Made by a program: the position numbers and the translations under genes | Notes under the pieces: generated by a model | What the model saw: the letters and a program-made list of their open reading frames with translations, nothing else | The model's database searches: none | What the model was told of the DNA's origin: nothing | Assembly (NCBI RefSeq): GCF_014644295.1 | Contig: NZ_BMKK01000002.1 | Coordinates: 558,001-622,000, forward strand | From: Emticicia aquatilis | GTDB taxonomy: Bacteria; Bacteroidota; Bacteroidia; Cytophagales; Spirosomataceae | Direction of reading: 5' to 3' | Length of the DNA stretch: 64,000 nucleotides | Part shown: positions 30,488 through 42,272 of the stretch, piece after piece | Layout: every line of letters starts with the position of its first letter | How positions within the stretch are numbered: the stretch's first letter is position 1

Positions 30488-32383
30488 TTAATTATTTTTA
30501 CAACCACCTATTTCAGCCGAAAAGTCGCTACCGAGTTCGGCATCAAAACCATGATTCAAATCTATTGATTTTTTTGCTTCCAAAGATAGTTGTTTTGCAT
30601 TAGTTATCGAAACGATTGTAGTAATTGATATATTCGCTCCGATGTAAGCTACTGCTGGAAGCGTCTTTAAATTAACATTATCAAGGCATTTTAAGGCCAC
30701 TTCTTTTGTATTTGACTTAGTATTTGGTGCATTTTCAGCAAAAACTCTGTAAAAATAAATTTTACCCAGTTCGGCTTGTGTATCATAATAATTACCGCCC
30801 GACACAACACCAATTTCACCAAAGCTATTATTATCAGTCGAACGCTCTACATGATATTTGGTCTGAGCATTGCTATTCCAAGTGAGTTTAACTTGAACAT
30901 CTTCATTAACTTCGGTATTGAGCGTAATTACTGTTGGTGGAGGTAAAATAACTGGTGTTTCGCCACCAATACTTATGTTGTCAAAACTAAAGGCACGCAT
31001 TCCATATTTGTTTTTGAGATGAACCCCGTTATAAAAACTCACCCCAAATTCGCCATAAGCATTAGGCAGATAAGAAACCGTTTTTGCGTTTTCAATATTG
31101 GCAACCGTCAAAAATATTCTATTACCAATGCCTTCTCCGCTTTGTACAACATCATTTCGGCCATCGACATAAATGAAATCTTTCATACTCCACGTTTTAC
31201 CGCTGGCTGATGAGTCTTGCGGATAAATCATTTCCATACCTTCATCAAACTCTAAAACTAATTTCTGATTTTCCCAATATACTTTTTTTATATCAGGCGA
31301 ATAAACTTGTGAAGACTGATTATCATTATATATTTCTCGCCCAACTATTCTTGCAAGTTCATAGGCCGTTTGACTGTAACCTTTCAGGCCATAATGCAAA
31401 CCATCGTATCCGCCAGTTCCAACAGTACTCATAGTTGTGATTTTGGGCATAAGATATTTTGTGCGTCTTTGATAATCACGCAAAAAACCAGCTTTACTGT
31501 TGTTGACTGTGAGAATGTTTGTCTGAATATTGAAGACTTTCTTGAGATTCGGAAAATCAAGGTTTAGGTTATTGTAAAGCTTTTCAAACTCAGCTGGGTA
31601 TTGCTCGGACTCCAATTGAAATGAACCATCGCTTTCGCCATGTCGAAAAATCACATATTTGATTTGGTCTTTCACATCACTGAATATCGTTTGTAAAAGC
31701 AATTTACCATAATGAGTATTTTTATCAGCAGGGTTTTCAGAATTTCGATTGTTTAGTCCTTTTATGTCAGAACCGCCCACCGAACCAACTATTACGCCTA
31801 CAGGATAATTATATTTTCCACAAAGAAATTTCTGAAATTCGAGCGTTCCAGTGCCTGGCCAAGTTGAGGTTTTGTAAGGTAAAACCCATTCACTATCGCC
31901 ATTATCGAAGTTAGCAACCGTAAAAAATCTCATTAAAGGATTTTCGGCGGGTCTGTAAGTGTCAATTCCTCCAGAACCAAGTGCATTTGACTGGCCATAT
32001 ATCAAAAATAAATCGCCAACCGCTACTTGAGTTGATTTCTTAATTTCTCTTGTGTCATCAAGTGTCAGAATGAATGTATAATTAAAATTTCCAGCTTTTA
32101 AGGTTGGTGAAAATGTAAAATCAGCAGAAGCATCCAATGTTTGTTCTGAAAAAACATTTCCATCTTGAAGAATTTTTAAAGAAATTGAAGAATGTCCGTT
32201 TTCGGTGATTTTTCCTTTTACTTGAAAAATAGCTTCATCTTGGTCATTACGTTGTAATACTTGATTATTGGCAGGAAATTTAGACAGATTTACCTGAGAA
32301 AAAACCTCTACACTACTCAGAAAGAGCAGAAATGCCATTAGGATGGAGCAATATTGATTCTTAAATGGGGGCATTACAGACAT
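30488..32383 (-). CDS. Secreted SGNH (sialate O-acetylesterase-like) protein with FN3 and coathanger-like tail
   Basis: A 631-aa exported protein. After a signal peptide (to about 30) comes an Ig-like segment (FPANNQVLQRN), then an SGNH esterase domain with the catalytic Ser in GQSNALG (S132), RHGESDG and the His in DGLHYG. A FN3 domain (VQVKLTWNSNAQTKYHVERS) and a C-terminal repeat domain (LSLEAKKSIDLNHGF, then AEIGGC) follow. The tail resembles the '3-coathanger stack' domains of Cytophagales surface proteins. The N-terminal and C-terminal parts are paralogous to the protein at 59009-61723. Likely role: removing acetyl groups from glycans at the cell surface. It is co-transcribed with rsmE. 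Confidence 0.82.
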   Translation of the reverse strand: MSVMPPFKNQYCSILMAFLLFLSSVEVFSQVNLSKFPANNQVLQRNDQDEAIFQVKGKITENGHSSISLKILQDGNVFSEQTLDASADFTFSPTLKAGNFNYTFILTLDDTREIKKSTQVAVGDLFLIYGQSNALGSGGIDTYRPAENPLMRFFTVANFDNGDSEWVLPYKTSTWPGTGTLEFQKFLCGKYNYPVGVIVGSVGGSDIKGLNNRNSENPADKNTHYGKLLLQTIFSDVKDQIKYVIFRHGESDGSFQLESEQYPAEFEKLYNNLNLDFPNLKKVFNIQTNILTVNNSKAGFLRDYQRRTKYLMPKITTMSTVGTGGYDGLHYGLKGYSQTAYELARIVGREIYNDNQSSQVYSPDIKKVYWENQKLVLEFDEGMEMIYPQDSSASGKTWSMKDFIYVDGRNDVVQSGEGIGNRIFLTVANIENAKTVSYLPNAYGEFGVSFYNGVHLKNKYGMRAFSFDNISIGGETPVILPPPTVITLNTEVNEDVQVKLTWNSNAQTKYHVERSTDNNSFGEIGVVSGGNYYDTQAELGKIYFYRVFAENAPNTKSNTKEVALKCLDNVNLKTLPAVAYIGANISITTIVSITNAKQLSLEAKKSIDLNHGFDAELGSDFSAEIGGCKNN

Positions 32384-32425
32384 TCTATTGTTTTTTGAAT
32401 TAAATAGAAAAATCGTGCCAAAAAC

Positions 32426-32461
32426 AAAAAAGGTACTTTCTTCTGCAAGAAAACACCTTTT
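32426..32461 (-). terminator. Intrinsic terminator of the L,D-transpeptidase gene
   Basis: AAAAAGGT-ac-TTTCTT pairs with AAGAAA-ac-ACCTTTT around CTGC. On the - strand a T-rich run follows. Confidence 0.75.
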
Positions 32462-32475
32462 CGCAAGAGATTTTG

Positions 32476-33222
32476 TTATTTTACTATATATCTACCAGAA
32501 TCTTCAATTACTATTTCGGGCAATTTTTTAGAACTTTCAAAAGCATCAAAACCCGGTTTTAACCACGACCAAAAGGCCAATAAACTGGCATCAGTACCAA
32601 ATTCATTATTGATTGCTTTATAATTTTGCTCATTCATAACGGTTGGAAATATATGAACATTGATTTTCCCACCCGCACTTTTGGCTTTTGCAGCCAATAA
32701 ATATAGTTCTTTGATATTTTCATCACCAATCGGAATACATCCAATCGTCACGCAATGACCATGAATAAAAATATTATCTCCAGGATTAAGCTTATCAGCA
32801 AAGACGAGGTCTGATTTATTCGGATAATTGATTCTGAACGAGAGATAATATTGGCTTTGTGGATTAAACAAATCTACTTCATAAAATCCCTCTGGAATTT
32901 GGCGGTCGCCTGAGCGACGCTTTGGCCCCAAAAAACCAGTTGTAGCACAATAGTCATAGGTTTTGACCAATGTAAATGTTTCGTCAGATTTATTTTTTGC
33001 CCAAACTTCAAGCTTCTGTTCTTTCTTGAAGGCCCTTAGAAATAAATCAAAATTGGTAGTATTAATACTTTTTGAAGCCAATAAATCATTAATGGCTTTC
33101 GATTTTTCTTTATTGGCAGCAAAAACCCTTGGGAATTTAAGTTGCTGCTCGAAAAAATTTGTAGGGGGAGTCATTGACATAAGGATTGATGTCAAAAGAA
33201 TCATCGTAAAGGTTCTTTTCAT
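32476..33222 (-). CDS. L,D-transpeptidase family protein (YkuD/YafK-like)
   Basis: A 248-aa envelope protein with a hydrophobic N-terminus. The YkuD active-site motif HGHCVTIGCIP is complete (H154/H156, catalytic C162), preceded by YYLSFRINYPNKSD. The early RVFAANKEK and YAFK-type domain order suggest the YafK group, which in E. coli cleaves Lpp from peptidoglycan rather than making 3-3 crosslinks. It is a single-gene unit with its own terminator. Confidence 0.88.
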   Translation of the reverse strand: MKRTFTMILLTSILMSMTPPTNFFEQQLKFPRVFAANKEKSKAINDLLASKSINTTNFDLFLRAFKKEQKLEVWAKNKSDETFTLVKTYDYCATTGFLGPKRRSGDRQIPEGFYEVDLFNPQSQYYLSFRINYPNKSDLVFADKLNPGDNIFIHGHCVTIGCIPIGDENIKELYLLAAKAKSAGGKINVHIFPTVMNEQNYKAINNEFGTDASLLAFWSWLKPGFDAFESSKKLPEIVIEDSGRYIVK

Positions 33223-33332
33223 TTTTGTTTTAGGGAGTATAAATTTGCGAACTCCGTAAATTTTGTTCTTTTTTTGAATATTTCACAATTTAGACGCAAA
33301 AATTTACCTAAAATATACAAATTCTCGCAATT

Positions 33333-34223
33333 TTATTTTCCCACCAACCATTTCAAAAATTGTGGCATTGCTTCGCTCCACGTTTTCTGATTATGTTCAC
33401 CGCCAACAATCTCGACGTACTCAATGTCTCTGCCACGCACATAACCTTTTCCTTCTAATTCTTTTATTAAATCGAGTGTATCGTCAATCGAATCAATAAT
33501 CCCATTATTATTTCGGTCATCTTGCTCGTCGTTAGTGCCACATTCCAACCAAAATTTTTGTCCAGCATTATAGTTGCCATTTCTTACCAAAACGTGCATA
33601 ATTCGGTCATTGTGGTCGTCGTAGCCATCTTCATAGGCCTTTTTTCGCCACCAAAAAGAAGCACTAAATGCACCTACTTTTGAGAAAAATTCAGGATTAC
33701 CCCAAACAATGTCCATTGCAGAAAGTCCTCCCAACGAAAAACCACAAAAATAATTATTAGTGTTTGAGGCGGACGCTTTGTAATTTGATATGATGAATGA
33801 AAAAAACTCCGATACTACGAAATTCTTGTAAGCCTCTGCTAAATTTCCACGGTTTTTATAATCAGGCATTGAAGCCGTACCGTATTCTTTCAAACGATTT
33901 TCGTTGGTGTGTAGGCCTACAAAAATCAAAGGTTCGATTTCGGCATGGGCATATAATTTGTTTAGTGTCTGTTCGATTTTGAGGTGTTCAAAGTCTTGAC
34001 CATCATTCATGTACAACACTTTCAAATCAGATAAATTATCATAATTGGGGGGTAAAACTACATCATAAACTACCTCTCTGTTGAGGAATGAAGATTTGAA
34101 TTTTTGATTTTTAATAACTAAAGCCTTTTGCACGTACTTGGATTTTTTTGTGATGAAAGATTTGGCAAAATTAACAATTCCTTTACCTTCAAAAATAAAA
34201 AAATCAAAAATCATTTGTTTCAT
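33333..34223 (-). CDS. Esterase family alpha/beta hydrolase with EF-hand-like loop
   Basis: A 296-aa putative esterase (Fes/PF00756 type) with the nucleophile Ser163 in GFSLGGLS, a strand-turn YMNDGQDFEHLK near 71-82, and the catalytic His in GGEHNQKTW near 277. Between them, residues 236-247 read DRNNNGIIDSID, a textbook calcium-binding EF-hand/dockerin loop. There is no clear signal peptide. It is divergent from the esterase and amidoligase genes starting at 34469 and may belong to the same pathway. Confidence 0.82.
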   Translation of the reverse strand: MKQMIFDFFIFEGKGIVNFAKSFITKKSKYVQKALVIKNQKFKSSFLNREVVYDVVLPPNYDNLSDLKVLYMNDGQDFEHLKIEQTLNKLYAHAEIEPLIFVGLHTNENRLKEYGTASMPDYKNRGNLAEAYKNFVVSEFFSFIISNYKASASNTNNYFCGFSLGGLSAMDIVWGNPEFFSKVGAFSASFWWRKKAYEDGYDDHNDRIMHVLVRNGNYNAGQKFWLECGTNDEQDDRNNNGIIDSIDDTLDLIKELEGKGYVRGRDIEYVEIVGGEHNQKTWSEAMPQFLKWLVGK

Positions 34224-34468
34224 TGCAGAAATTGGACTAATATTTCAAAGAAATTTTAGATTCCGTTAAACGCAAATATTCGATACAGATAATATATCTG
34301 TTGATTCTGAACAAAATAATATTTTACAAAAACACAAAAACACAACAATTTACAGACAATTAAAAATCACAATCCGCTGATTATCAATATTTTATTTGGC
34401 GACTTGATTTTTAAAATTAAAAACAAAATACGAATTTTGCACTTTCATCAAACGTACATCGAAAATTT

Positions 34469-35185
34469 ATGCAAGAAAAACATATAAAGTTTTATTCACA
34501 CATCATGAGTCAAGACATCGACATTCTGATTAGTGGTCACTGGGGCTATCCTATTTTAATGTTTCCTACGTCGATGGGAAATTATCTACAAAACAAAGAT
34601 TTCGGACTTCTGGACACCGTTGGTGATTTGGTTGATGCAGGAAAAATAAAACTTTATAATGTCGATAGTATTGATTTCCAAAGCTTCTATGCCAAGGATT
34701 TGCCTGCTCATGTAAAAATTTACAATTACAATTTATATACACAATTTCTGAAAGAAGAACTCGTACCTGCTATTCAGCGTGAATGTGGAGTGCATAGAAT
34801 TGCTGTTGCTGGTTGTAGTTTTGGGGGCTATCATTGCTCAAACTTTGCTTTCAAAAATCCTGATTTGGTTGCTCACATGTTTAGTATGAGCGGAGCATTT
34901 AGTATCAAGAGTTTCATGAAAGGCCACTACGATGATAATGTGTATTTCAACGAACCAATGGATTTTATGAACCACGCAGAATCTTGGAAATTCAATCACA
35001 TGAATATCGTTTTAGGTACATCAGACTGGGATATTTGTCGTGAAGATAATCTAAATATGTCGAGACTTTTGGCAAATAAAGGCATCAATCATTGGTATGA
35101 CGAAAAACGTTGGGCAAGCCACGATTGGCCACTTTGGAAAATGATGTTTTCGGAGTATGTCAGAAAAATGCCACTTTATAGTTAG
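34469..35185 (+). CDS. Esterase family alpha/beta hydrolase
   Basis: A 238-aa cytosolic putative esterase. The nucleophile Ser117 sits in VAGCSFGGYH. A probable acid lies in LGTSDWDICRED and the His in WASHDWPLWK near the C-terminus. There is no signal peptide. It is the first gene of a + strand series with two ATP-grasp-type proteins, a COG2170 ligase and an amidotransferase. A hydrolase in such a set may trim or release the amide product, or act as a thioesterase. The 133-bp gap to the next gene carries a CCCCC/GGGGG palindrome. Confidence 0.82.
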   Translation: MQEKHIKFYSHIMSQDIDILISGHWGYPILMFPTSMGNYLQNKDFGLLDTVGDLVDAGKIKLYNVDSIDFQSFYAKDLPAHVKIYNYNLYTQFLKEELVPAIQRECGVHRIAVAGCSFGGYHCSNFAFKNPDLVAHMFSMSGAFSIKSFMKGHYDDNVYFNEPMDFMNHAESWKFNHMNIVLGTSDWDICREDNLNMSRLLANKGINHWYDEKRWASHDWPLWKMMFSEYVRKMPLYS

Positions 35186-35284
35186 TGATTAGTTACTGGT
35201 TGTCAGTTATCTGTATAGCAAAAAATACATTTTCATCAAAAACGTGCTTTAAACAACCCCAAAAGCACAGCATAACCTTAAATC

Positions 35285-35314
35285 AAGTCCCCCCATTGGG
35301 GGTTAGGGGGCTAA
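35285..35314. repeat. C/G-rich palindromic repeat in front of the ATP-grasp gene
   Basis: A CCCCCC run, ATT, then GGGGG-TTA-GGGGG. The C5/G5 arms can form a tight hairpin that ends about 13 bp before the ATP-grasp ATG. I recall similar C5/G5 elements as widespread intergenic repeats in Bacteroidota. Confidence 0.65.
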
Positions 35315-35318
35315 CAAC

Positions 35319-36320
35319 ATGAAAAAAATAGGTATATTATTTGGAATGGAAGATACGTTTCCATGGGCTTTTATTGAACAAGTAAACAAAACTGCTCCTG
35401 CTGGAATTATTGCTGAGGCGGTTCAAATTGATAAAGTTGAGCAAGGCGTACCTACAGATTACGCAGTAATTATTGACCGTATTTCGCAAGACGTACCATT
35501 TTACAGAGCATATTTGAAAAATGCAGCTCTTTGCGGAACGGCCGTTATCAATAACCCATTTTGGTGGAGTGCCGACGAAAAATTCTTCAATAACTGTTTA
35601 GCAGTAAAACTCGGTGTTCCTGTTCCGAAAACTGTCCTTTTACCATCAAAAGAGCGTCCAGACGATACAACCGAAAAATCATTCCGCAATTTGGTTGCTC
35701 CACTTGACTGGGGATATATGTTCAATCAAATCGGTTTCCCCGCTTACATGAAACCACATGCTGGTGGAGGCTGGAAAAGTGTTTACAGAGTTGATAATCC
35801 TGATGATTTGTGGCACAAACACGGCGAAACTGGTCAACTTGTAATGCTTTTGCAAGAAGAAATCCAGTTTACAGATTATTATCGTTGTTATTGCTTAAAT
35901 GGCAAATATGTGCATATTATGCCTTATGAGCCACGCAATCCGCACCATTTGAGATACGCAACTCAGCCAAAAACAACAGGCGAAGCACATAAAAAACTCA
36001 TGGCTACTATAACTGACTATGTGTTGAAATTGAATCACGCTTTGGGGTATGATTTTAATACGGTTGAATTTGCTATCCGTGATGGTATTCCGTACGCTAT
36101 TGACTTCTGTAACCCTGCTCCTGATGCCGATATTCACTCAGTTGGACAAGGAAACTTCGATTGGATAGTAGAAAATGCAGCCAAAATGGCAATTGAAAGA
36201 GCAATCGAACAAGTAGATGGCAAAAACAACTGTACTTGGGGAACCTATGTAAGAGAAGCAGCAATGCCAGCAGCACCAGCCGCAGTTCCTGTCAAAAAAG
36301 CTCCAGCTAAGAAAAAATAA
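35319..36320 (+). CDS. ATP-grasp ligase with Ala/Pro/Lys tail
   Basis: A 333-aa ATP-grasp enzyme of the RimK/glutathione-synthetase-like type. Visible elements are the ATP-binding Lys in PAYMKPHAGGGWKSVY near 142-157, VMLLQEEIQFTDYYRCYCLNG (in two halves) and the metal/substrate site NTVEFAIRDG with IDFCNPAPD near 255. ATP-grasps join a carboxylate to an amine through an acylphosphate. The last 20 residues are a low-complexity Ala/Pro/Lys tail (MPAAPAAVPVKKAPAKKK), absent from typical members and perhaps nucleic-acid- or membrane-contacting. A terminator follows at 36331-36364. Confidence 0.85.
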   Translation: MKKIGILFGMEDTFPWAFIEQVNKTAPAGIIAEAVQIDKVEQGVPTDYAVIIDRISQDVPFYRAYLKNAALCGTAVINNPFWWSADEKFFNNCLAVKLGVPVPKTVLLPSKERPDDTTEKSFRNLVAPLDWGYMFNQIGFPAYMKPHAGGGWKSVYRVDNPDDLWHKHGETGQLVMLLQEEIQFTDYYRCYCLNGKYVHIMPYEPRNPHHLRYATQPKTTGEAHKKLMATITDYVLKLNHALGYDFNTVEFAIRDGIPYAIDFCNPAPDADIHSVGQGNFDWIVENAAKMAIERAIEQVDGKNNCTWGTYVREAAMPAAPAAVPVKKAPAKKK

Positions 36321-36330
36321 AACAATTTTG

Positions 36331-36364
36331 AGCCGTGTTATTGAAAAATAGCACGGCTTTTCTT
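36331..36364 (+). terminator. Intrinsic terminator after the ATP-grasp gene
   Basis: AGCCGTGTTATT pairs with AATAGCACGGCT (one G-U) around GAAA, followed by TTTCTTT. It would separate or attenuate transcription between the ATP-grasp gene and the COG2170 ligase gene. Confidence 0.8.
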
Positions 36365-36388
36365 TAAATTGTATTTTTAATCAACATA

Positions 36389-36430
36389 ATTCTCATTCTT
36401 CATTCTACATTCTTAATTGTGCGAAAGCAC
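36389..36430. repeat. Tandem heptamer followed by a GNRA hairpin
   Basis: ATTCTCA, TTCTTCA, TTCTACA, TTCTTAA units (36389-36418) are followed by GTGC-GAAA-GCAC (36419-36430), a 4-bp stem with a GNRA tetraloop, 18 bp before the ligase ATG. Confidence 0.65.
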
Positions 36431-36447
36431 TTTATACCGAATAAACT

Positions 36448-37545
36448 ATGTCTCTATTTACTTTAGGTATTGAAGAAGAGTTTCAAACCATTGACCCAAA
36501 AACTCGGGAATTACGCTCTCACATGTCGAAACTGGTCGAAGGTGGGCAGGTAATTTTACAAGAACGCATCAAACAAGAAATGCACCAAGCGGTGGTTGAG
36601 ATGATTTCGAGTGTTTGCGAAAATATCCAGCAAGCACGAGAAGAAGTGACTTATCTCCGCCGAATGCTTTTTGATTTGGCTGCTAAACAAAATCTACACA
36701 TTGCGGCAGCAGGAACGCACCCATTTTCGGACTGGCAAAAACAGCTTATCACCGAAGATGCTCGCTACGATAAGCTAATAGACGATATGCGTGATGTGGC
36801 TCGCTCAAACCTCATTTTTGGCTTGCACGTACACGTAGGTATTCCAAGCCGTGAAGAAGGGATGCAAATTCTGAACGCTGCACGCTATTTTTTACCACAC
36901 ATCTACGCACTTTCGACAAACTCACCTTTTTGGTGCGGTCGAAATACAGGTTTTAAATCTTATCGTTCAAAAGTTTTCGATAAATTTCCTCGCACGGGTA
37001 TTCCCGACTATTTTTCGAGCGTAGCCGAATACGATAATTATGTAAACTTGCTCATCAAAACTGGTTGTATCGACAACGGCAAGAAAATTTGGTGGGATTT
37101 ACGTCTGCACCCATTTTATCCGACAATCGAATTCCGCATTTGTGATATTCCGATACGTGTCGATGAAACCATTTGTTTGGCGGCCTTAATGCAAGCAATT
37201 GTAGCTAAACTTCATAAATTACACCAACAAAATCTTAGTTTCCGTCCATATCACAAAATGCTCATCAGTGAAAATAAATGGCGAGCTGCTCGTTACGGAA
37301 TCCACGGTAATTTGATTGATTTTGGTAAAGAAATTGAGGTACCATACTCGCACTTGGCTGAAGAGTTGATGGAATTTGTTGATGATGTTTTAGACGAACT
37401 TGGAAGTAGAAAAGAAGTGGAATACATCCACGAAATATTGAAAATGGGAAGCGGTGCAGACCGACAACTAAAAGTTTTTGAAGAAACTAAAAGCCTAAAA
37501 TCTGTTGTTGATTATATAGTAAACGAGACCAAAATCGGGCTTTAA
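36448..37545 (+). CDS. Carboxylate-amine ligase (COG2170, YbdK/GCS2 family)
   Basis: A 365-aa member of glutamate-cysteine ligase family 2. It opens with the family signature FTLGIEEEFQTIDPKTREL, and has AAAGTHPF near 90, FGLHVHVGIP near 130 and the active-site LRLHPFYPTIEFRICD near 225. The E. coli homologue YbdK has weak gamma-glutamyl-cysteine ligase activity, and the true substrate of the family is generally unknown. Position between two ATP-grasp-like genes and an amidotransferase suggests it makes one amide bond of a multi-step product. Confidence 0.9.
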   Translation: MSLFTLGIEEEFQTIDPKTRELRSHMSKLVEGGQVILQERIKQEMHQAVVEMISSVCENIQQAREEVTYLRRMLFDLAAKQNLHIAAAGTHPFSDWQKQLITEDARYDKLIDDMRDVARSNLIFGLHVHVGIPSREEGMQILNAARYFLPHIYALSTNSPFWCGRNTGFKSYRSKVFDKFPRTGIPDYFSSVAEYDNYVNLLIKTGCIDNGKKIWWDLRLHPFYPTIEFRICDIPIRVDETICLAALMQAIVAKLHKLHQQNLSFRPYHKMLISENKWRAARYGIHGNLIDFGKEIEVPYSHLAEELMEFVDDVLDELGSRKEVEYIHEILKMGSGADRQLKVFEETKSLKSVVDYIVNETKIGL

Positions 37546-37562
37546 ATAAGGAATCTCTTTAA

Positions 37563-37596
37563 TTTGAGGGTATATTTTCGTAAATTTACCCTCAAA
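37563..37596. promoter_or_regulatory. Perfect inverted repeat in the leader of the amidotransferase gene
   Basis: TTTGAGGGTA (37563-37572) pairs with TACCCTCAAA (37587-37596) over a 14-bp spacer and ends 14 bp before the ATG. There is no T-run, so an operator or leader hairpin is more likely than a terminator. Confidence 0.55.
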
Positions 37597-37610
37597 ATAC
37601 ACCCATAAGT

Positions 37611-38435
37611 ATGAAAGAAGATATTAAAATTGCAATTTTAGATATGTACAATGGCTTTGCCAACGAAGGTATGCGTTGTATAAAAATGTTGTGCGGAGAA
37701 TTTCTTGCACAAGAGGGTATCAAGGGAAACTACGATATTTTTGATGTAAGAAAAAAGAACGAAATACCTAAAATTGAGGATTATGATATTTTCATTTCGA
37801 CTGGTGGCCCAGGAAATCCATTACCTGAAGGACACGAATGGGAAGCCAAATTTGGCAATTTTCTTGACCAAATTTTTGCCTACAATCAAGCAAATGACAA
37901 CAAAAAATATTTGTTTTTGATTTGTCACTCTTTCCAAGTTGCCAGCCATCATTTGCAATTAGGGTATATTTGTAAGCGTCGCTCGACTTCGTTTGGAGTC
38001 ATGCCAATTCATCGAACAAGCGATGGTGAAACTGAACCGTTTTTCAATGGTTTACCCGAAATTTTCTATGCCGTTGACTCAAGAGATTATCAGATGATTC
38101 AGCCAAACTGGCAGAAAATCAATGATTTTGGAGCAAAAGTACTGTGTCTCGAAAAAATCAGAGAATACGTTCCGCTCGAAAGAGCTATTATGGCTATTAG
38201 ATTTTCTGAGGAAGTTTTTGGTACTCAGTTTCATCCCGAAGCCGATGCCGAAGGTATGCTCCGCTATTTCAAACAAGAAGAAAAAATGATTGCTGTAATC
38301 AGCGAACATGGTTCAGACAAATACGAACAAATGATTGACCACCTCGATGACCCTGATAAAATCATGCTCACCGAGTCGATAATCATCCCATCGTTTTTGA
38401 ATCATGCTGCCGAACAAATTTTAGCAGTTGCATAA
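37611..38435 (+). CDS. Stand-alone class I glutamine amidotransferase
   Basis: A 274-aa GATase1 domain protein related to GMP-synthase-type amidotransferases, which release ammonia from glutamine. The catalytic Cys105 lies in FLICHSFQ, where the usual G-x-C-x-G elbow lacks both glycines. His208 and Glu210 lie in GTQFHPEAD. An oxyanion-type STGGPGNP is at 63-70. There is a C-terminal extension of about 50 residues. It starts 65 bp after the COG2170 ligase and ends 12 bp before the next gene, so it likely feeds ammonia to one of these ligases or hydrolyses a gamma-glutamyl intermediate. Confidence 0.87.
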   Translation: MKEDIKIAILDMYNGFANEGMRCIKMLCGEFLAQEGIKGNYDIFDVRKKNEIPKIEDYDIFISTGGPGNPLPEGHEWEAKFGNFLDQIFAYNQANDNKKYLFLICHSFQVASHHLQLGYICKRRSTSFGVMPIHRTSDGETEPFFNGLPEIFYAVDSRDYQMIQPNWQKINDFGAKVLCLEKIREYVPLERAIMAIRFSEEVFGTQFHPEADAEGMLRYFKQEEKMIAVISEHGSDKYEQMIDHLDDPDKIMLTESIIIPSFLNHAAEQILAVA

Positions 38436-38447
38436 ATTCCCTCTATT

Positions 38448-39644
38448 ATGATTCCTGCCATCCGACAACAATTCAACGAAAGTTTCACGACACAAAAATA
38501 TGAAGCAATGATTGCGGAAATTCATAAAGATTTCCCCAATCAGCTTGATTTTAGAGTTGCCGAAACCCCTGTTTTCGTTCCGAAAGAACTAAAAATCAAG
38601 CTATTACAGGCTTGTAATGATATTATTGAGGTCTTACTGAAGCCCGATTTTAAGGAAAAAACTAATCGTGCAATTCCTGCCAATCAGAATGTGCCGAATG
38701 AAGACGCTCACCCAAGTTTTTTGGCAATTGACTTTGCAGTTTGCAAAGACCAAAATGGCGAGTTGAGTCCGCAACTCATTGAGCTACAAGGCTTTCCTTC
38801 GCTGTTTGGTTATCAATGGTATTTGGGGCAGAAATACCGCAAGTTTTTTATCGACCCAAAAGGCTTTAGTCAATATTTCAATCGTCTTTCGATGGCATCT
38901 TATGTCGATGAAATGAAAAAAGTTTTGTTGGGCGAGGAAAATGCTGAAAATGTAATTTTGCTCGAAATTTACCCCGAACAGCAAAAAACACGCTTAGATT
39001 TTGAAATTACTCGACAACTTTGGGGAATCGAACCCGTTTGTTTGACCAAAATCAAAAAAGTTGGCCGACAACTTTTCTATGAAAAGAATGGAAAAACCAT
39101 TGAAATCAAACGTATATATAATCGACTGATTTTTGATGATTTATTACAGAATTTTCCCGACTTGCAAACTAATTTCAAAATGACTGATGATGTGGATGTC
39201 AAATGGGTGACTCACCCAAATTGGTTTTTCCGTATCAGTAAGTTCACTTTACCTTTGCTCAAAAGTGTATTTGTACCGCAAAGTTATTTTTTATCAGATT
39301 TGAAAGAATACCCCACCGACTTAGAAAATTATGTTCTAAAACCATTATTTTCATTCGCAGGAAGTGGTGTAAAACTTAATTTTACGAAAGAAGAATTGGA
39401 TGCCATTGCTGATAAGGAGAATTATTTGATTCAACGAAAAGTTAAATACGAACCAATTATCGAAGATAAAGAAGGAAATATGATAAAGACTGAAATCAGA
39501 ATGTTATTTACATGGGAAGATAATGCTCCTCGACCAAAACTTGTTACAAATCTGGCTCGTTTAAGTCGTGGGGAAATGATTGGTGTAAACTTCAATAAAA
39601 ATTTCGATTGGGTAGGCGGTAGTTGTGCCTTTTTTGAAGATTAA
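38448..39644 (+). CDS. ATP-grasp-like protein (glutathionylspermidine-synthase-like)
   Basis: A 398-aa protein that I assign to the circularly permuted or atypical ATP-grasp group by pattern: an acidic/substrate segment PQLIELQGFPSLFGYQ near 110, IKRIYNRLIFDDL near 220, the probable ATP-binding YVLKPLFSFAGSGVKL near 295, YLIQRKVKYEP near 330 and the metal-site-like KTEIRMLFTW near 350. It ends the series and lies 12 bp after the amidotransferase, so the two are co-transcribed. The substrate is unknown. The assignment is weaker than for the first ATP-grasp in the cluster. Confidence 0.7.
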   Translation: MIPAIRQQFNESFTTQKYEAMIAEIHKDFPNQLDFRVAETPVFVPKELKIKLLQACNDIIEVLLKPDFKEKTNRAIPANQNVPNEDAHPSFLAIDFAVCKDQNGELSPQLIELQGFPSLFGYQWYLGQKYRKFFIDPKGFSQYFNRLSMASYVDEMKKVLLGEENAENVILLEIYPEQQKTRLDFEITRQLWGIEPVCLTKIKKVGRQLFYEKNGKTIEIKRIYNRLIFDDLLQNFPDLQTNFKMTDDVDVKWVTHPNWFFRISKFTLPLLKSVFVPQSYFLSDLKEYPTDLENYVLKPLFSFAGSGVKLNFTKEELDAIADKENYLIQRKVKYEPIIEDKEGNMIKTEIRMLFTWEDNAPRPKLVTNLARLSRGEMIGVNFNKNFDWVGGSCAFFED

Positions 39645-39668
39645 TTTTGGAAAAATGATAATAAGTTG

Positions 39669-39718
39669 AGAGTCAGTGTCTAATATTGCAAAATTTAGAC
39701 ACTGACTCTTTTTATTTT
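39669..39718 (+). terminator. Intrinsic terminator at the end of the amidoligase series
   Basis: AGAGTCAGTGTCTAA (39669-39683) pairs perfectly with TTAGACACTGACTCT (39695-39709), followed by TTTTATTTT. Confidence 0.92.
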
Positions 39719-39793
39719 ATTCAAATTAATTTCTTATTAATTCATTATTATTAAAATATTTTATTTTTACTCGAAATAAATCAATCTTTCAAA

Positions 39794-41230
39794 ATGAAAT
39801 ATAAAATAATTTTATCTACCCTACTATTTTTTTCTTTAATAAGTGAAAGTGGTTTTGCACAAAATACTATTCACCCAACTTCGTCGCTTTATCAATATCC
39901 AAAAGAACCCGAAGTTCGTCAAAAACTCGAAAATTGGCGTGACCTCAAATTTGGTATGATTATCCACTGGGGGCTTTATGCTGTGCCTGGTATCATCGAG
40001 TCTTGGTCGATTTGTAATGAAGATTGGATTACAAGAGATTCAATGAGCAGATATGACGACTACAAAAAATGGTACTGGGGACTCAGTAAAGATTTTAATC
40101 CAACCAAGTTCGACCCCGAATCTTGGGCAAAAGCAGCCAAAAGTGCAGGTATGAAATATTTGGTTTTTACGACCAAACACCACGACGGCTTCAATATGTT
40201 TGATACCAAATACAGTGATTTCAAAATCAGCAATGGTCCTTTTGCCAATAATCCACGTGCAGATGTAGCCAAATATGTTTTTGATGCTTTTCGTAAAGAA
40301 AATTTCATGATTGGAGCATATTTTTCAAAACCCGACTGGTACACACAGTATTATTGGTGGGACAGATACGCTACACCCGACCGTAACGTAAACTACGATA
40401 TTCGCAAAAACCCATGGCGTTGGAATAAATACAAAGAATTTACCTACAATCAAATCAATGAACTTACCTCAAACTACGGAAGCGTAGATATTTTGTGGTT
40501 AGATGGTGGTTGGGTACGTCCGTTAAACACCGTAAATGATGAAGTACGCTCGTGGGGAGCACCGATTCCGCCATTCAGTCAAGAAATTGATATGCCGAAA
40601 ATAGCCACCATGGCACGCAAAAATCAACCAGGTTTATTGATTGTTGATAGAACAGTTCATGGGCCATACGAAAACTATCGAACACCTGAGCAGACAATTC
40701 CGAAGACTAAATCAGATACTCCGTGGGAAAGCTGTATCACACTTGGTGGTGCTTGGGGCTACGTGCCAAACGATAATTTCAAAACGGCATCAAAAGTAAT
40801 TCACACTTTAATTGAAGTGGTAGCCAAAGGCGGAAGTCTTTTATTAGGGGTTGGCCCAACCGCAGAAGGAACATTACTTGATGCACAAGTAGAAAGATTG
40901 AACGAGATTGGTAAATGGTTAGATAAAAACGGAGAGGCAATTTACGGTACCCGTGCAACCGACCATTTTAATGAGAATGATATTTATTTTACGAAAGGGA
41001 AAGGAAATAATTTGTATGCTTTAGTGAAAATAAATGAAGGTTCTGCTCCGAGTGCAAGTATTTCTTGGACAAAAAATATCCCAAAATCTGGCAGCAAAAT
41101 AACACTATTGGGAGAAGATATTTCGTTGAAGTGGGAAAAGAAAGGTGAAAAAGTTTTGGTATATTTACCGAAAGAAATTACCGAAAAATATCATTCATCA
41201 CCAGCTTTGGCTCTCAGATTTGAGAAATAA
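39794..41230 (+). CDS. Secreted alpha-L-fucosidase, GH29
   Basis: A 478-aa glycoside hydrolase of family 29 with a signal peptide (residues 1-22). Family features: KFGMIIHWGLYAVPG near 50, KYLVFTTKHHDGFNMFDT near 125, and the likely nucleophile Asp in VDILWLDGGW near 235. It removes alpha-L-fucose from glycans such as fucoidan or host-type glycans. It is followed within 20 bp by a sialidase-like glycosidase, so the two form a small glycan-degrading operon. No SusC/SusD pair is adjacent. Confidence 0.93.
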   Translation: MKYKIILSTLLFFSLISESGFAQNTIHPTSSLYQYPKEPEVRQKLENWRDLKFGMIIHWGLYAVPGIIESWSICNEDWITRDSMSRYDDYKKWYWGLSKDFNPTKFDPESWAKAAKSAGMKYLVFTTKHHDGFNMFDTKYSDFKISNGPFANNPRADVAKYVFDAFRKENFMIGAYFSKPDWYTQYYWWDRYATPDRNVNYDIRKNPWRWNKYKEFTYNQINELTSNYGSVDILWLDGGWVRPLNTVNDEVRSWGAPIPPFSQEIDMPKIATMARKNQPGLLIVDRTVHGPYENYRTPEQTIPKTKSDTPWESCITLGGAWGYVPNDNFKTASKVIHTLIEVVAKGGSLLLGVGPTAEGTLLDAQVERLNEIGKWLDKNGEAIYGTRATDHFNENDIYFTKGKGNNLYALVKINEGSAPSASISWTKNIPKSGSKITLLGEDISLKWEKKGEKVLVYLPKEITEKYHSSPALALRFEK

Positions 41231-41249
41231 AGTCTATTCAACCCTATCT

Positions 41250-42272
41250 ATGAAAACCATCCATCTATTCACCATCATCCTACTATTGGCATTTAATTGT
41301 TTTTCACAAGTAACATTAATCAAAGAAGGATTCATTGATGCAAACCCCGAAGAAAAATCTTGCCATGCCTCAACTATTGTAGAGCTTTCTGGCGGCAAAT
41401 ACATGGCAGCTTGGTTTGCTGGAGAACACGAAAACCACCCCAAAGTGTGCATTTGGGTTTCGACAAAAATTAAAGAAAATTGGAGCAAACCTGTAAAAGT
41501 GGCTGATGGTATCTATGAAGGCACTCAATATGCTTGTTGGAATCCGGTTTTGTTTAAAAACCCATCGGGTAAATTATTTTTATTCTACAAAGTTGGCATC
41601 AATCCAAGAGAATGGTGGGGAATGATGAAGACTTCTTTGGATGAGGGCAAAACTTGGTCGGCCGCTACTCGCCTACCCAATGATATTTTGGGACCAATCA
41701 AAAACAAAAGTATTCAACTCAAGAACGGTGATATTTTACACCCATCAAGCACCGAAAGTGTAGATAGCAAAGTTTGGCATACACACGTCGAGATTTCGGA
41801 TGCAAATGGCGAAAATTGGCGAAAAATTCCGATTGAATGCGGTGAATATGGTGTAATTCAGCCTTCGGTATTGATTCATAAAGATGGAAGATTGCAAATG
41901 CTATTGCGTAGCCGTCAAAACAAAATTATTCAGTCGTGGTCGTCGGATAATGGAAAAACTTGGAGAGAACTCACTCCCATAAATTTACCCAATCCAAATT
42001 CGGGTATTGATGCTGTTACGCTAAAAGATGGTTCATTCTTATTAGTTTACAACCCACTTCCATCAGGGAAGGAATGGTCGAATGGCAGAAATGTATTAAA
42101 ATTGGCACATTCGACCGATGGAATTAATTGGACAGATATTTATACACTTGAAAATAAAGAAAAAGGAGAGTTTAGCTACCCTGCAATCATTCAATCTTCT
42201 GATGGTTTAGTACATATCACCTACACTTTTGACCGAAAATTGATTAAGAATGTAGTTTTGAGTGTAAAATAA
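41250..42272 (+). CDS. Secreted sialidase-family (BNR/Asp-box) glycosidase
   Basis: A 340-aa six-bladed propeller protein of the sialidase superfamily with a signal peptide (MKTIHLFTIILLLAFNCFSQ). Asp-box repeats are visible as SLDEGKTW, SSDNGKTW and STDGINW. The early HASTIVELSGGKYMAAWF and GEHENHP strands are family-like. The frame extends upstream to 41145 inside the fucosidase gene, but ATG 41250, just before the signal peptide, is the clear start. True exo-sialidase specificity is uncertain, because the FRIP motif is not evident. It is co-transcribed with the GH29 gene and ended by the 42282-42326 terminator. Confidence 0.82.
   Translation: MKTIHLFTIILLLAFNCFSQVTLIKEGFIDANPEEKSCHASTIVELSGGKYMAAWFAGEHENHPKVCIWVSTKIKENWSKPVKVADGIYEGTQYACWNPVLFKNPSGKLFLFYKVGINPREWWGMMKTSLDEGKTWSAATRLPNDILGPIKNKSIQLKNGDILHPSSTESVDSKVWHTHVEISDANGENWRKIPIECGEYGVIQPSVLIHKDGRLQMLLRSRQNKIIQSWSSDNGKTWRELTPINLPNPNSGIDAVTLKDGSFLLVYNPLPSGKEWSNGRNVLKLAHSTDGINWTDIYTLENKEKGEFSYPAIIQSSDGLVHITYTFDRKLIKNVVLSVK

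Follow-up and report, generated by a model that had tools for sequence, protein, structure and literature searches.

A set of five consecutive genes in the Emticicia aquatilis window (the whole analysed stretch of 64,000 nucleotides) probably encodes a chromosomal non-ribosomal amide-bond-forming pathway with a small peptide-like or amide product, a reading to which we assign a probability of roughly 70%. The cassette is almost certainly one functional unit: in many Bacteroidota its genes (E2, P3, P4, P5 and P6) are retained or lost jointly and seem to move as a group, and this co-occurrence and joint variation suggest that they serve one pathway leading to a small peptide-like compound. The joint amide-bond-forming pathway proposed in an earlier note on this DNA is therefore retained, whereas its assignment of P5 as an ammonia donor and the equal status it gave to two esterases, E1 and E2, are not.

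The six open reading frames (ORFs) E1, E2 and P3 to P6 occupy positions 33333-39644 of the window, all at the positions given beforehand. E1 (33333-34223, minus strand) is divergently transcribed and is followed, as had been claimed, by five consecutive plus-strand genes, E2 (34469-35185), P3 (35319-36320), P4 (36448-37545), P5 (37611-38435) and P6 (38448-39644), which are separated by intergenic gaps of 133, 127, 65 and 12 bases. Terminator-like hairpins, both consensus matches only, lie between E2 and P3 (35289-35310, minus strand, C/G-rich) and between P3 and P4 (36330-36359, plus strand, with a T-rich tail), and thus the set may be transcribed here in more than one unit. An Rfam scan of positions 32000-41500 yielded nothing near a gathering score, the sole match reaching 10.9 of 47 bits. 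A fucosidase gene and the ORF after it were considered as further members and rejected, as they are not beside P6 in the inspected maps of other loci. The exception is a very close relative, which has an ORF of fucosidase length and the same cluster.

The co-occurrence on which the earlier proposal had been made to depend was borne out, as the genes co-occur, often adjoin and change together in Bacteroidota. Across 247 genomes of the phylum, strong matches were identified for P3 (86 genomes), P4 (79), P6 (73) and P5 (59), with pairwise Fisher p-values among these four genes of 1.7e-18 to 1.3e-42, and 41 genomes contain the full set from E2 to P6. P3 and P6 occur together in 70 genomes (P3 alone in 16, P6 alone in three), P4 and P6 in 68 (P4 alone in 11, P6 alone in five) and P5 and P6 in 46 (P5 alone in 13, P6 alone in 27). 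Weak matches had been removed by eye before counting, which reduced E2 from 112 to 95, P5 from 62 to 59, the alternative ATP-grasp c10 (described below) from 65 to 14 and M29 peptidases from 75 to three; the weakest matches kept had E-values of 3.2e-79 (c10) and 2.3e-131 (M29), and the three removed P5 matches 1.7e-5 to 6.2e-4. Within families in which both genes of a pair are mixed, concordance was complete for P4/P6 (69/69; 37.8 expected), P5/P6 (68/68; 38.2 expected) and P4/P5 (63/63; 34.8 expected) and nearly so for P3/P6 (71/74; 41.7 expected), values reached by none of 10000 shuffles. This test used the genomes with a family label, 63-74 of the 247 per pair, and presence lists and labels were transcribed by hand.

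Linkage was analysed in 141 loci, among them 80 named loci; a scan of named genomes with P6, of which the best 80 were kept, extended beyond the phylum. P5 and P6 lie on the same strand in 79 cases and on opposite strands in one more; 75 of the same-strand pairs are immediately adjacent, and 18 overlap by the ORF calls used. All counts from neighbourhoods are minimum values: genes of high-GC loci were displaced in the calls by long antisense ORFs, and four of 60 regions contained no core gene by clustering, three of them being centred on a match, including one in which P6 is fused and was hence missed. Some genomes carry the set split over two sites, two examples having P3-P4 apart from P5-P6. 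No relatives of P3, P5 or P6 were detected in a plasmid collection (tblastn, E 1e-5), and none of 57 pattern matches to P3 relatives in viral contigs was confirmed.

E1 and E2 encode Esterase-family alpha/beta hydrolases (Pfam PF00756; 93.3 and 40.6 bits, cut-off 22). E2 is a core member with strong matches in 95 of the 247 genomes, including 83 of the 86 with P3 (12 genomes have E2 alone and three P3 alone). E1, in contrast, was clustered in 37 of the 141 loci, a number that clustering may undercount, and is divergent from and directly adjoining E2 in 26, which is why we regard it as accessory and not, as previously held, as an equal member.

P4 encodes a COG2170/YbdK-type carboxylate-amine ligase of the GCS2 fold (Pfam PF04107; 215.4 bits, cut-off 21), which exceeds the cut-off of the NCBIfam carboxylate-amine ligase model NF010039 (556.1 vs 371 bits). 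It matches YbdK (1r8g, 3.4e-75) and, remotely, plant glutamate-cysteine ligase (2gwc, 7.7e-8). To our knowledge, the physiological role of COG2170/YbdK enzymes is still unclear. Besides this general model for P4, no NCBIfam cut-off is passed by any of the genes, as E1, E2, P3 and P5 match far below cut-offs only and P6 has no match at all; assignment to separate known pathways, the outcome that would have spoken against the earlier proposal, was thus not observed.

Structure prediction upheld the earlier assignment of P3 and P6 to the ATP-grasp enzymes. P6 passes no Pfam cut-off either (GSP_synth PF03738, 13.0 bits vs 29.3), and three of 25 aligned relatives match GSP_synth at E <= 0.01 (best E 0.00036). 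Its predicted structure (pLDDT 92.9) points to a circularly permuted ATP-grasp with the fold of glutathione synthetase, glutathionylspermidine synthase (GspS) and YgiC: the top matches are the GspS-like 3n6x, yeast glutathione synthetase 1m0w and YgiC 7uk8 (E 1e-13 to 5e-13), further ones include 7uk6, homoglutathione synthetase 3kal and the E-64 ligase Cp1B 9cjn, and all 29 PDB matches at E <= 0.001 belong to the glutathione synthetase/GspS group, with TM-scores by query length of 0.47-0.62 and identities of only 8-16%. Residues D95, E112, Q114, K298, E349 and R351 are invariant in 107/107 sequences. The acyl-phosphate residues of Cp1B form an RxD...ExN motif (R139, D141, E163 and N165) according to PMC12568646, whereas P6 reads AxD...ExQ, where ExQ was placed by aligning profiles of P6 and c10, a weak match (probability 26%), and AxD by eye. 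In this register, the P6 of the window lacks the Arg two positions before D95 and has Q in place of N, and its chemistry may therefore differ.

A second circularly permuted ATP-grasp, c10 (CP_ATPgrasp_2), is present in 13 of the 16 genomes that have P3 without P6. Of the 14 genomes with a strong c10 match, 13 lack P6 and one has it, and c10 sits between P3 and P5 in the loci with calls for both; P6 and c10 are exchangeable parts of the set.

P3 resembles a LysX/RimK/Ddl-fold ATP-grasp in its predicted structure (pLDDT 89.9), with fold matches to ArgX/LysX, Ddl and RimK and also to the graspetide ligase PsnB. Its match to Pfam R2K_2 is weak (20.8 bits, below the cut-off of 26.2), and four of 26 relatives match this model at E <= 0.01. 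Conservation of K145, Q179, R189, E250, D262 and N265 extends to 78-79 of 79 sequences, and position 153, a candidate for the second conserved lysine of R2K, is lysine in 66 and arginine in nine of the 79.

P5 encodes a stand-alone protein of the class I glutamine amidotransferase fold (Pfam GATase PF00117; 30.9 bits, cut-off 22.8) with an intact C-H-E triad (C105/H208/E210). Every genome with a strong P5 match among the 247 also has P6 or c10; P5 is missing in 27/73 genomes with P6, 28/86 with P3 and 32/79 with P4. Without a constant synthetase partner, ammonia donation, the role initially assigned to P5, is not supported. At four loci (three Pfam-tested), an M29-type peptidase takes P5's usual place directly upstream of P6, in three of them between P4 and P6, and this fits a hydrolase role of P5 at least as well as ammonia donation. 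The link is thin: M29 occupies the P5 slot in two of the 27 P6 genomes without P5, and close M29 matches occur in three of these 27 and in none of the 46 with P5.

Peptidases of other kinds, each limited like M29 to few lineages, adjoin the set elsewhere, including M42 before P5 (four loci), S10 after P4 (three loci) and M17 together with a third ATP-grasp (two loci). The M17, M29 and M42 aminopeptidases and the S10 peptidase fit the peptide-like product suggested previously. Furthermore, a LuxC-type acyl-CoA reductase, an SDR and a GFO/IDH/MocA oxidoreductase are encoded near the set in some lineages.

Putative catalytic residues of P3 to P6 are invariant or nearly so, and the folds match those of carboxylate-amine ligases. 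Product, substrates and step order are inferred, and the order is a guess. Like glutamate-cysteine ligases, P4 could couple an amine or amino acid to a carboxylate (probably gamma) of a glutamate-like acid. P6 would then phosphorylate a carboxylate of the P4 product or a related intermediate and couple a second amine or amino acid, and P3 might add one more residue. E2, together with E1 where present, may act on a precursor or product by cleaving an ester, P5 would act at the glutamyl end, rather as a gamma-glutamyl hydrolase or transferase, and the neighbouring aminopeptidases or carboxypeptidases of some lineages might trim or recycle the product. Counting against this reading of the set, P4 is missing in 5/73 and P5 in 27/73 genomes with P6, and neither is thus indispensable to every version.

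A gamma-glutamyl, glutathione- or glutathionylspermidine-like product is possible, and we put it forward tentatively. Somewhat more speculative is an undiscovered gamma-glutamyl oligopeptide or peptidyl-amine, made in many Bacteroidota by a glutathione-like assembly line alongside bacillithiol and encoded by a cassette passed between lineages. On this equally speculative proposal, the COG2170 ligase would take the first step of the assembly line, a ligase of a new glutathione-synthetase-fold family the second and a LysX/RimK-like ligase the third, with a glutamyl hydrolase for turnover. A simple substitute thiol was considered and rejected: among 80 chosen genomes, 40 that carry P3, P4 and P6 (the pathway) and 40 that do not (one of which has a divergent P3 and another an E2), the bacillithiol enzyme BshC (PF10079) was identified in 79 irrespective of the set, and a general thiol role would therefore be redundant. 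The sole BshC-negative genome has the pathway. GshB (PF02955) was found in 46 of the 80 genomes (22 pathway-positive and 24 pathway-negative), strongly (E < 1e-50) in 12 (four and eight), and a search of the E. aquatilis genome for this prokaryotic family gave no match.

Alternatively, the genes might serve the use of a gamma-glutamyl-protected amine or amino acid, in which P4 masks the amine, other enzymes process it and P5 removes the glutamate, as PuuA and PuuD do by gamma-glutamate masking and removal in putrescine breakdown. The GCS2 family of P4, the P5 triad (positions invariant in 88/88) and an ArgD-like class III aminotransferase that scores below NCBIfam cut-offs, which directly follows P6 in 16 of the 80 named loci and occurs in 23 of them, agree with this scheme. 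We consider it unlikely, however, as P5 is missing in 32/79 P4 genomes and P4 in 12/59 P5 genomes, Pfam identified no amine oxidase or aldehyde dehydrogenase among the recurrent clusters touching a core gene in at least three loci, and two ATP-grasp ligases are left without explanation. A role in modifying ribosomal peptides or proteins, with P3 and/or P6 adding amino acids or cyclising like RimK or graspetide ligases, appears less probable again. Whereas RimK and PsnB are among the fold neighbours of P3, and the R2K clade was proposed as protein modifiers in PMC4431377, no recurrent small precursor-like gene was seen among the called ORFs (at least 70 amino acids only). COG2170 enzymes, as far as we know, also act on small molecules. 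That these are unlinked housekeeping genes and chance neighbours in this lineage, as the split sets might suggest, can practically be dismissed, since the two example split genomes retain both halves and the 247-genome co-occurrence and within-family concordance (P4/P5 and P4/P6 without exception) contradict it.

This work could assign COG2170/YbdK enzymes to a pathway and might bring to light a small molecule that is common among environmental bacteria. P6 is present in roughly 30% of the 247 genomes, yet lies outside all Pfam and NCBIfam cut-offs, and a coherent pathway with near-perfect co-inheritance and replaceable parts makes a good target. No description of the gene combination was found in literature that included few subscription papers, and one may already have been published. 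In the amidoligase neighbourhoods of Iyer et al. 2009, ATP-grasp and GCS2-type ligases are reportedly linked with peptidases of unrelated folds.

Among known systems, operons mixing ATP-grasp with other peptide ligases are noted generally in PMC4431377, the text of which does not mention COG2170, GCS2 or esterase; P3 differs from the R2K clade by its score below the R2K_2 cut-off. The fungal E-64 pathway (Cp1B and an amide bond synthetase) likewise uses stand-alone enzymes to form two amide bonds in succession, but the consulted passages of PMC12568646 mention no such COG2170 enzyme, GATase or esterase. Peptide-spermidine ligase activity of YgiC/YjfC is given in the title of a reference in PMC12568646; these enzymes and glutathionylspermidine synthase are among the best P6 folds (3n6x, 7uk8 and 7uk6), whereas P6 scores below the GSP_synth cut-off and appears to differ in its motif. 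An M42 from one of the loci scored 36.7 bits against the NAGGN peptidase model TIGR03106, below the cut-off of 397.75. The NAGGN osmoprotectant cluster similarly combines an ATP-grasp, an amidotransferase and an M42 peptidase, but relies on an asparagine-synthase-type amidotransferase, and P5 is class I. Although glutathione and homoglutathione synthesis has no counterpart of P3, P5 or E2, and P4 falls in the YbdK/COG2170 branch, P4 is remotely related to plant glutamate-cysteine ligase and P6 has the predicted fold of eukaryotic glutathione synthetase.

All six genes of the set lay where an earlier note on this DNA had placed them, with the Esterase-family hydrolases E1 (33333-34223, minus strand) and E2 (34469-35185, plus strand) followed on the plus strand by P3 (35319-36320), P4 (36448-37545), P5 (37611-38435) and P6 (38448-39644). 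Pfam confirmed the identities proposed for both esterases, the GCS2/COG2170 (YbdK-type) carboxylate-amine ligase P4 and the class I GATase-fold protein P5; NCBIfam also supported that of the ligase, whose solved relatives include YbdK (3.4e-75) and, far more weakly, a plant glutamate-cysteine ligase (7.7e-8). The ATP-grasp matches of P3 and P6 fell below the curated cut-offs of Pfam and NCBIfam, and other tests of these two identities were therefore made using AlphaFold2 models built on alignments of 26 and 25 sequences (mean pLDDT 89.9 and 92.9, respectively). In Foldseek, the P3 model matched ArgX/LysX, D-Ala-D-Ala ligases, RimK and the graspetide ligase PsnB (E 4e-13 to 5e-12 among the 50 matches listed), and the P6 model matched a glutathionylspermidine-synthase-like protein, yeast, human and plant glutathione or homoglutathione synthetases, Escherichia coli YgiC and YjfC and the fungal ligase Cp1B (E 1e-13 to 2e-10). 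These matches of predicted structures bear out the description of P6 as 'ATP-grasp-like'. P6 is of the circularly permuted ATP-grasp kind, as are the enzymes that it matches; of 25 P6 relatives, 2-3 weakly match the Pfam models GSP_synth, CP_ATPgrasp_1 and ATPgrasp_ST.

P6 is carried by 38 of 58 relatives (own genome counted). Among 247 genomes drawn evenly from the Bacteroidota, 73 had P6, 86 P3, 79 P4, 62 P5 (59 strong) and 112 E2 (95 strong), and 41 hold all five. In presence tables compiled by hand from the search outputs (both, first only, second only, neither), the counts were 70, 16, 3 and 158 for P3/P6, 68, 11, 5 and 163 for P4/P6, 46, 13, 27 and 161 for P5/P6, and 47, 32, 12 and 156 for P4/P5. 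Fisher p values for pairs among P3-P6 ranged from 1.7e-18 to 1.3e-42; since relatedness inflates such values, presence was also permuted inside families varying for both genes, using genomes with a family label. Concordance in these mixed families was 69/69 for P4/P6, 68/68 for P5/P6, 63/63 for P4/P5, 71/74 for P3/P6, 66/69 for P3/P4 and 65/68 for P3/P5; 35-42 was expected, and none of 10000 shuffles attained any observed pair value.

Some parts appear in alternative forms. In lineages without P6, another circularly permuted ATP-grasp protein of 450-475 aa (c10; the single member tested matched Pfam CP_ATPgrasp_2 at 37.3 bits, cut-off 32) sits between P3 and P5. Strong c10 matches (E 3.2e-79 or better) occurred in 14 of the 247 genomes, 13 of them without P6 and all 13 with P3 and P5; the sole exception, G192, has the weakest of the 14 matches. 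Accordingly, c10 is present in 13 of the 16 genomes having P3 without P6, the other three (G064, G142, G215) encoding the most divergent P3, and no genome among the 247 had a strong P5 while lacking both P6 and c10. P4 is absent from five of the 73 P6 genomes (four in family f26) and P5 from 27. An M29-type peptidase (identified by Pfam for L191, L216 and L288) lies directly upstream of P6 in G111, G148 and the Ignavibacteria MAG loci L288 and L314, and between P4 and P6 in the first three. Its close form occurs in three of the 247 genomes, none with P5, and in the third, G263, is remote from P6. Though few, these cases suggest that P5 does the work of a hydrolase.

Gene order was compared across 141 loci: the window itself, 60 fetched regions, and 80 named loci from Cytophagales, Chitinophagales, Saprospiraceae, Cyclobacteriaceae, Ignavibacteria and unplaced Bacteroidetes MAGs, these being the 80 best among at least 573 matches. 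The commonest complete order was E1 (divergent), E2, P3, P4, P5, P6. P5 and P6 shared a strand in 79 cases, 75 of them with the two genes side by side (median gap 24 bases); the corresponding figure was 56 for P3-P4, 54 for P4-P5 and 44 for E2-P3. Within these best 80 matches, P3-P6 all lay inside the fetched stretch in 36 (both esterases in 22 of those), and the remainder held P5-P6 only (22), P6 only (13), P4-P5-P6 (7) or other sets (2); some of the contigs are short, and the clustering tends to undercount. The set is split in some genomes: E2-P3-P4 lie apart from P5-P6 in G245, for instance, as do P3-P4 in G205, in only loose agreement with the terminator-like hairpin that separates P3 from P4 in the window. 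The short AT-rich stretch at 36388-36433, between these two genes, matches four other genome sites at 90-100% over 25-39 bases and is, by sequence, a small dispersed intergenic repeat. L243 (G209) and L213 (G273), from the same genus, have a common cassette flank; in G209, however, E2 and P3 are missing from the stretch that joins P4 to this flank, and neither gene was found elsewhere in that genome.

In single-gene trees (24-31 chosen loci, no support values), G273 (f25, of another taxonomic order) paired with G249 (f19, of the window's taxonomic order) in five of five trees, and G281 (f25) with G120 (f26) in trees of the four genes present in G120; the P4 tree placed G281 with Cyclobacteriaceae MAGs. 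Because the same distant genomes pair in gene after gene, the cassette looks to have moved as a block. P3 and E2 of G162, G289 and G265 (L205, L206, L207) fall beside the window and Lacihabitans in these unsupported trees and P6 falls elsewhere, so that P6 alone may have been exchanged. The plasmid collection contained no relative of P3, P5 or P6.

Invariance at putative catalytic positions, read from motifs, suggests that P3-P6 are active enzymes: P5 C105/H208/E210 (88/88), P6 D95, E112, Q114, K298, E349 and R351 (107/107), P3 K145, Q179, R189, E250, D262 and N265 (78-79 of 79), and P4 H127, H129 and R230 (70/70) with E9 and E11 (69, one gap). P4 would catalyse the first step and P6, with its glutathione-synthetase fold, a later one, P3 being a third ligase. 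P4 followed by P6 would resemble glutathione assembly, with step order, amino acids and amine all conjectural. Several neighbours, each confined to few lineages, together point to peptide-like bonds. An M42 aminopeptidase lies directly 5' of P5-P6 in L235, L291, L297 and L300 (Pfam for the first three); an M17 leucyl aminopeptidase, an esterase and a third ATP-grasp protein adjoin the set in L207 and L210 (Pfam for L207, with eight genes in a one-strand run); and in three loci of family f42, namely L187 (Pfam), L237 and L238, P4 is directly followed by an S10 carboxypeptidase. A PF07969 amidohydrolase occurs in two arrangements, directly before P5 in five named loci and before P6 in five genomes of family f42, with one example of each identified by Pfam. 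An ArgD-like class III aminotransferase lies 3' of P6 in 16 of the 80 best-matching named loci. In Hymenobacter-type loci an esterase is fused to a DinB-superfamily domain. One such 538-aa fusion (L251:990-2603; cluster c14, in nine loci, adjoining a core gene in four) matches mycothiol-S-transferase at 25.7 bits (cut-off 27), a possible hint of thiol chemistry. An 867-aa ORF of G180 (L192:6637-9240) joins an N-terminal sodium:solute symporter (PF00474) to a C-terminal P6 relative; this permease-ligase fusion is a hint that a substrate or product is transported. In G134 (L233:7039-9277), P6 lies directly 3' of a Trp/Tyr-class tRNA synthetase (PF00579), and the gene 3' of P6 resembles glutamyl-tRNA synthetase by eye. 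In the window, a YkuD-fold protein adjoins the set (32476-33222; best NCBIfam match peptidoglycan mDAP protein amidase LdtF/DpaA, 137.7, cut-off 365). By sequence annotation, the cassette is flanked by glycan-related genes, namely a SASA-type esterase (30488-32383) and, downstream on the same strand with another ORF (39794-42272), an alpha-L-fucosidase (PF01120).

A simple substitute for a known thiol was rejected as the product, since BshC occurs in 79 of 80 genomes regardless of the set and PF02955 is unlinked to it (22 of 40 genomes with the set, 24 of 40 without). Amidoligase neighbourhoods were reportedly described by Iyer et al. in 2009, and this cassette may be among them. The parts consulted of the R2K paper (PMC4431377) do not name such a cassette. 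P6 may not be fully equivalent to glutathione synthetases, because it reads ExQ for the ExN of Cp1B and lacks the Arg of RxD (by weak alignment to c10 and by eye); five c10 sequences keep both RxD and ExN by eye. According to the portion seen of the Cp1B study (PMC12568646), the closest structural homologues of this E-64 pathway ligase are homoglutathione synthetase and YgiC/YjfC, the same group as those of P6.
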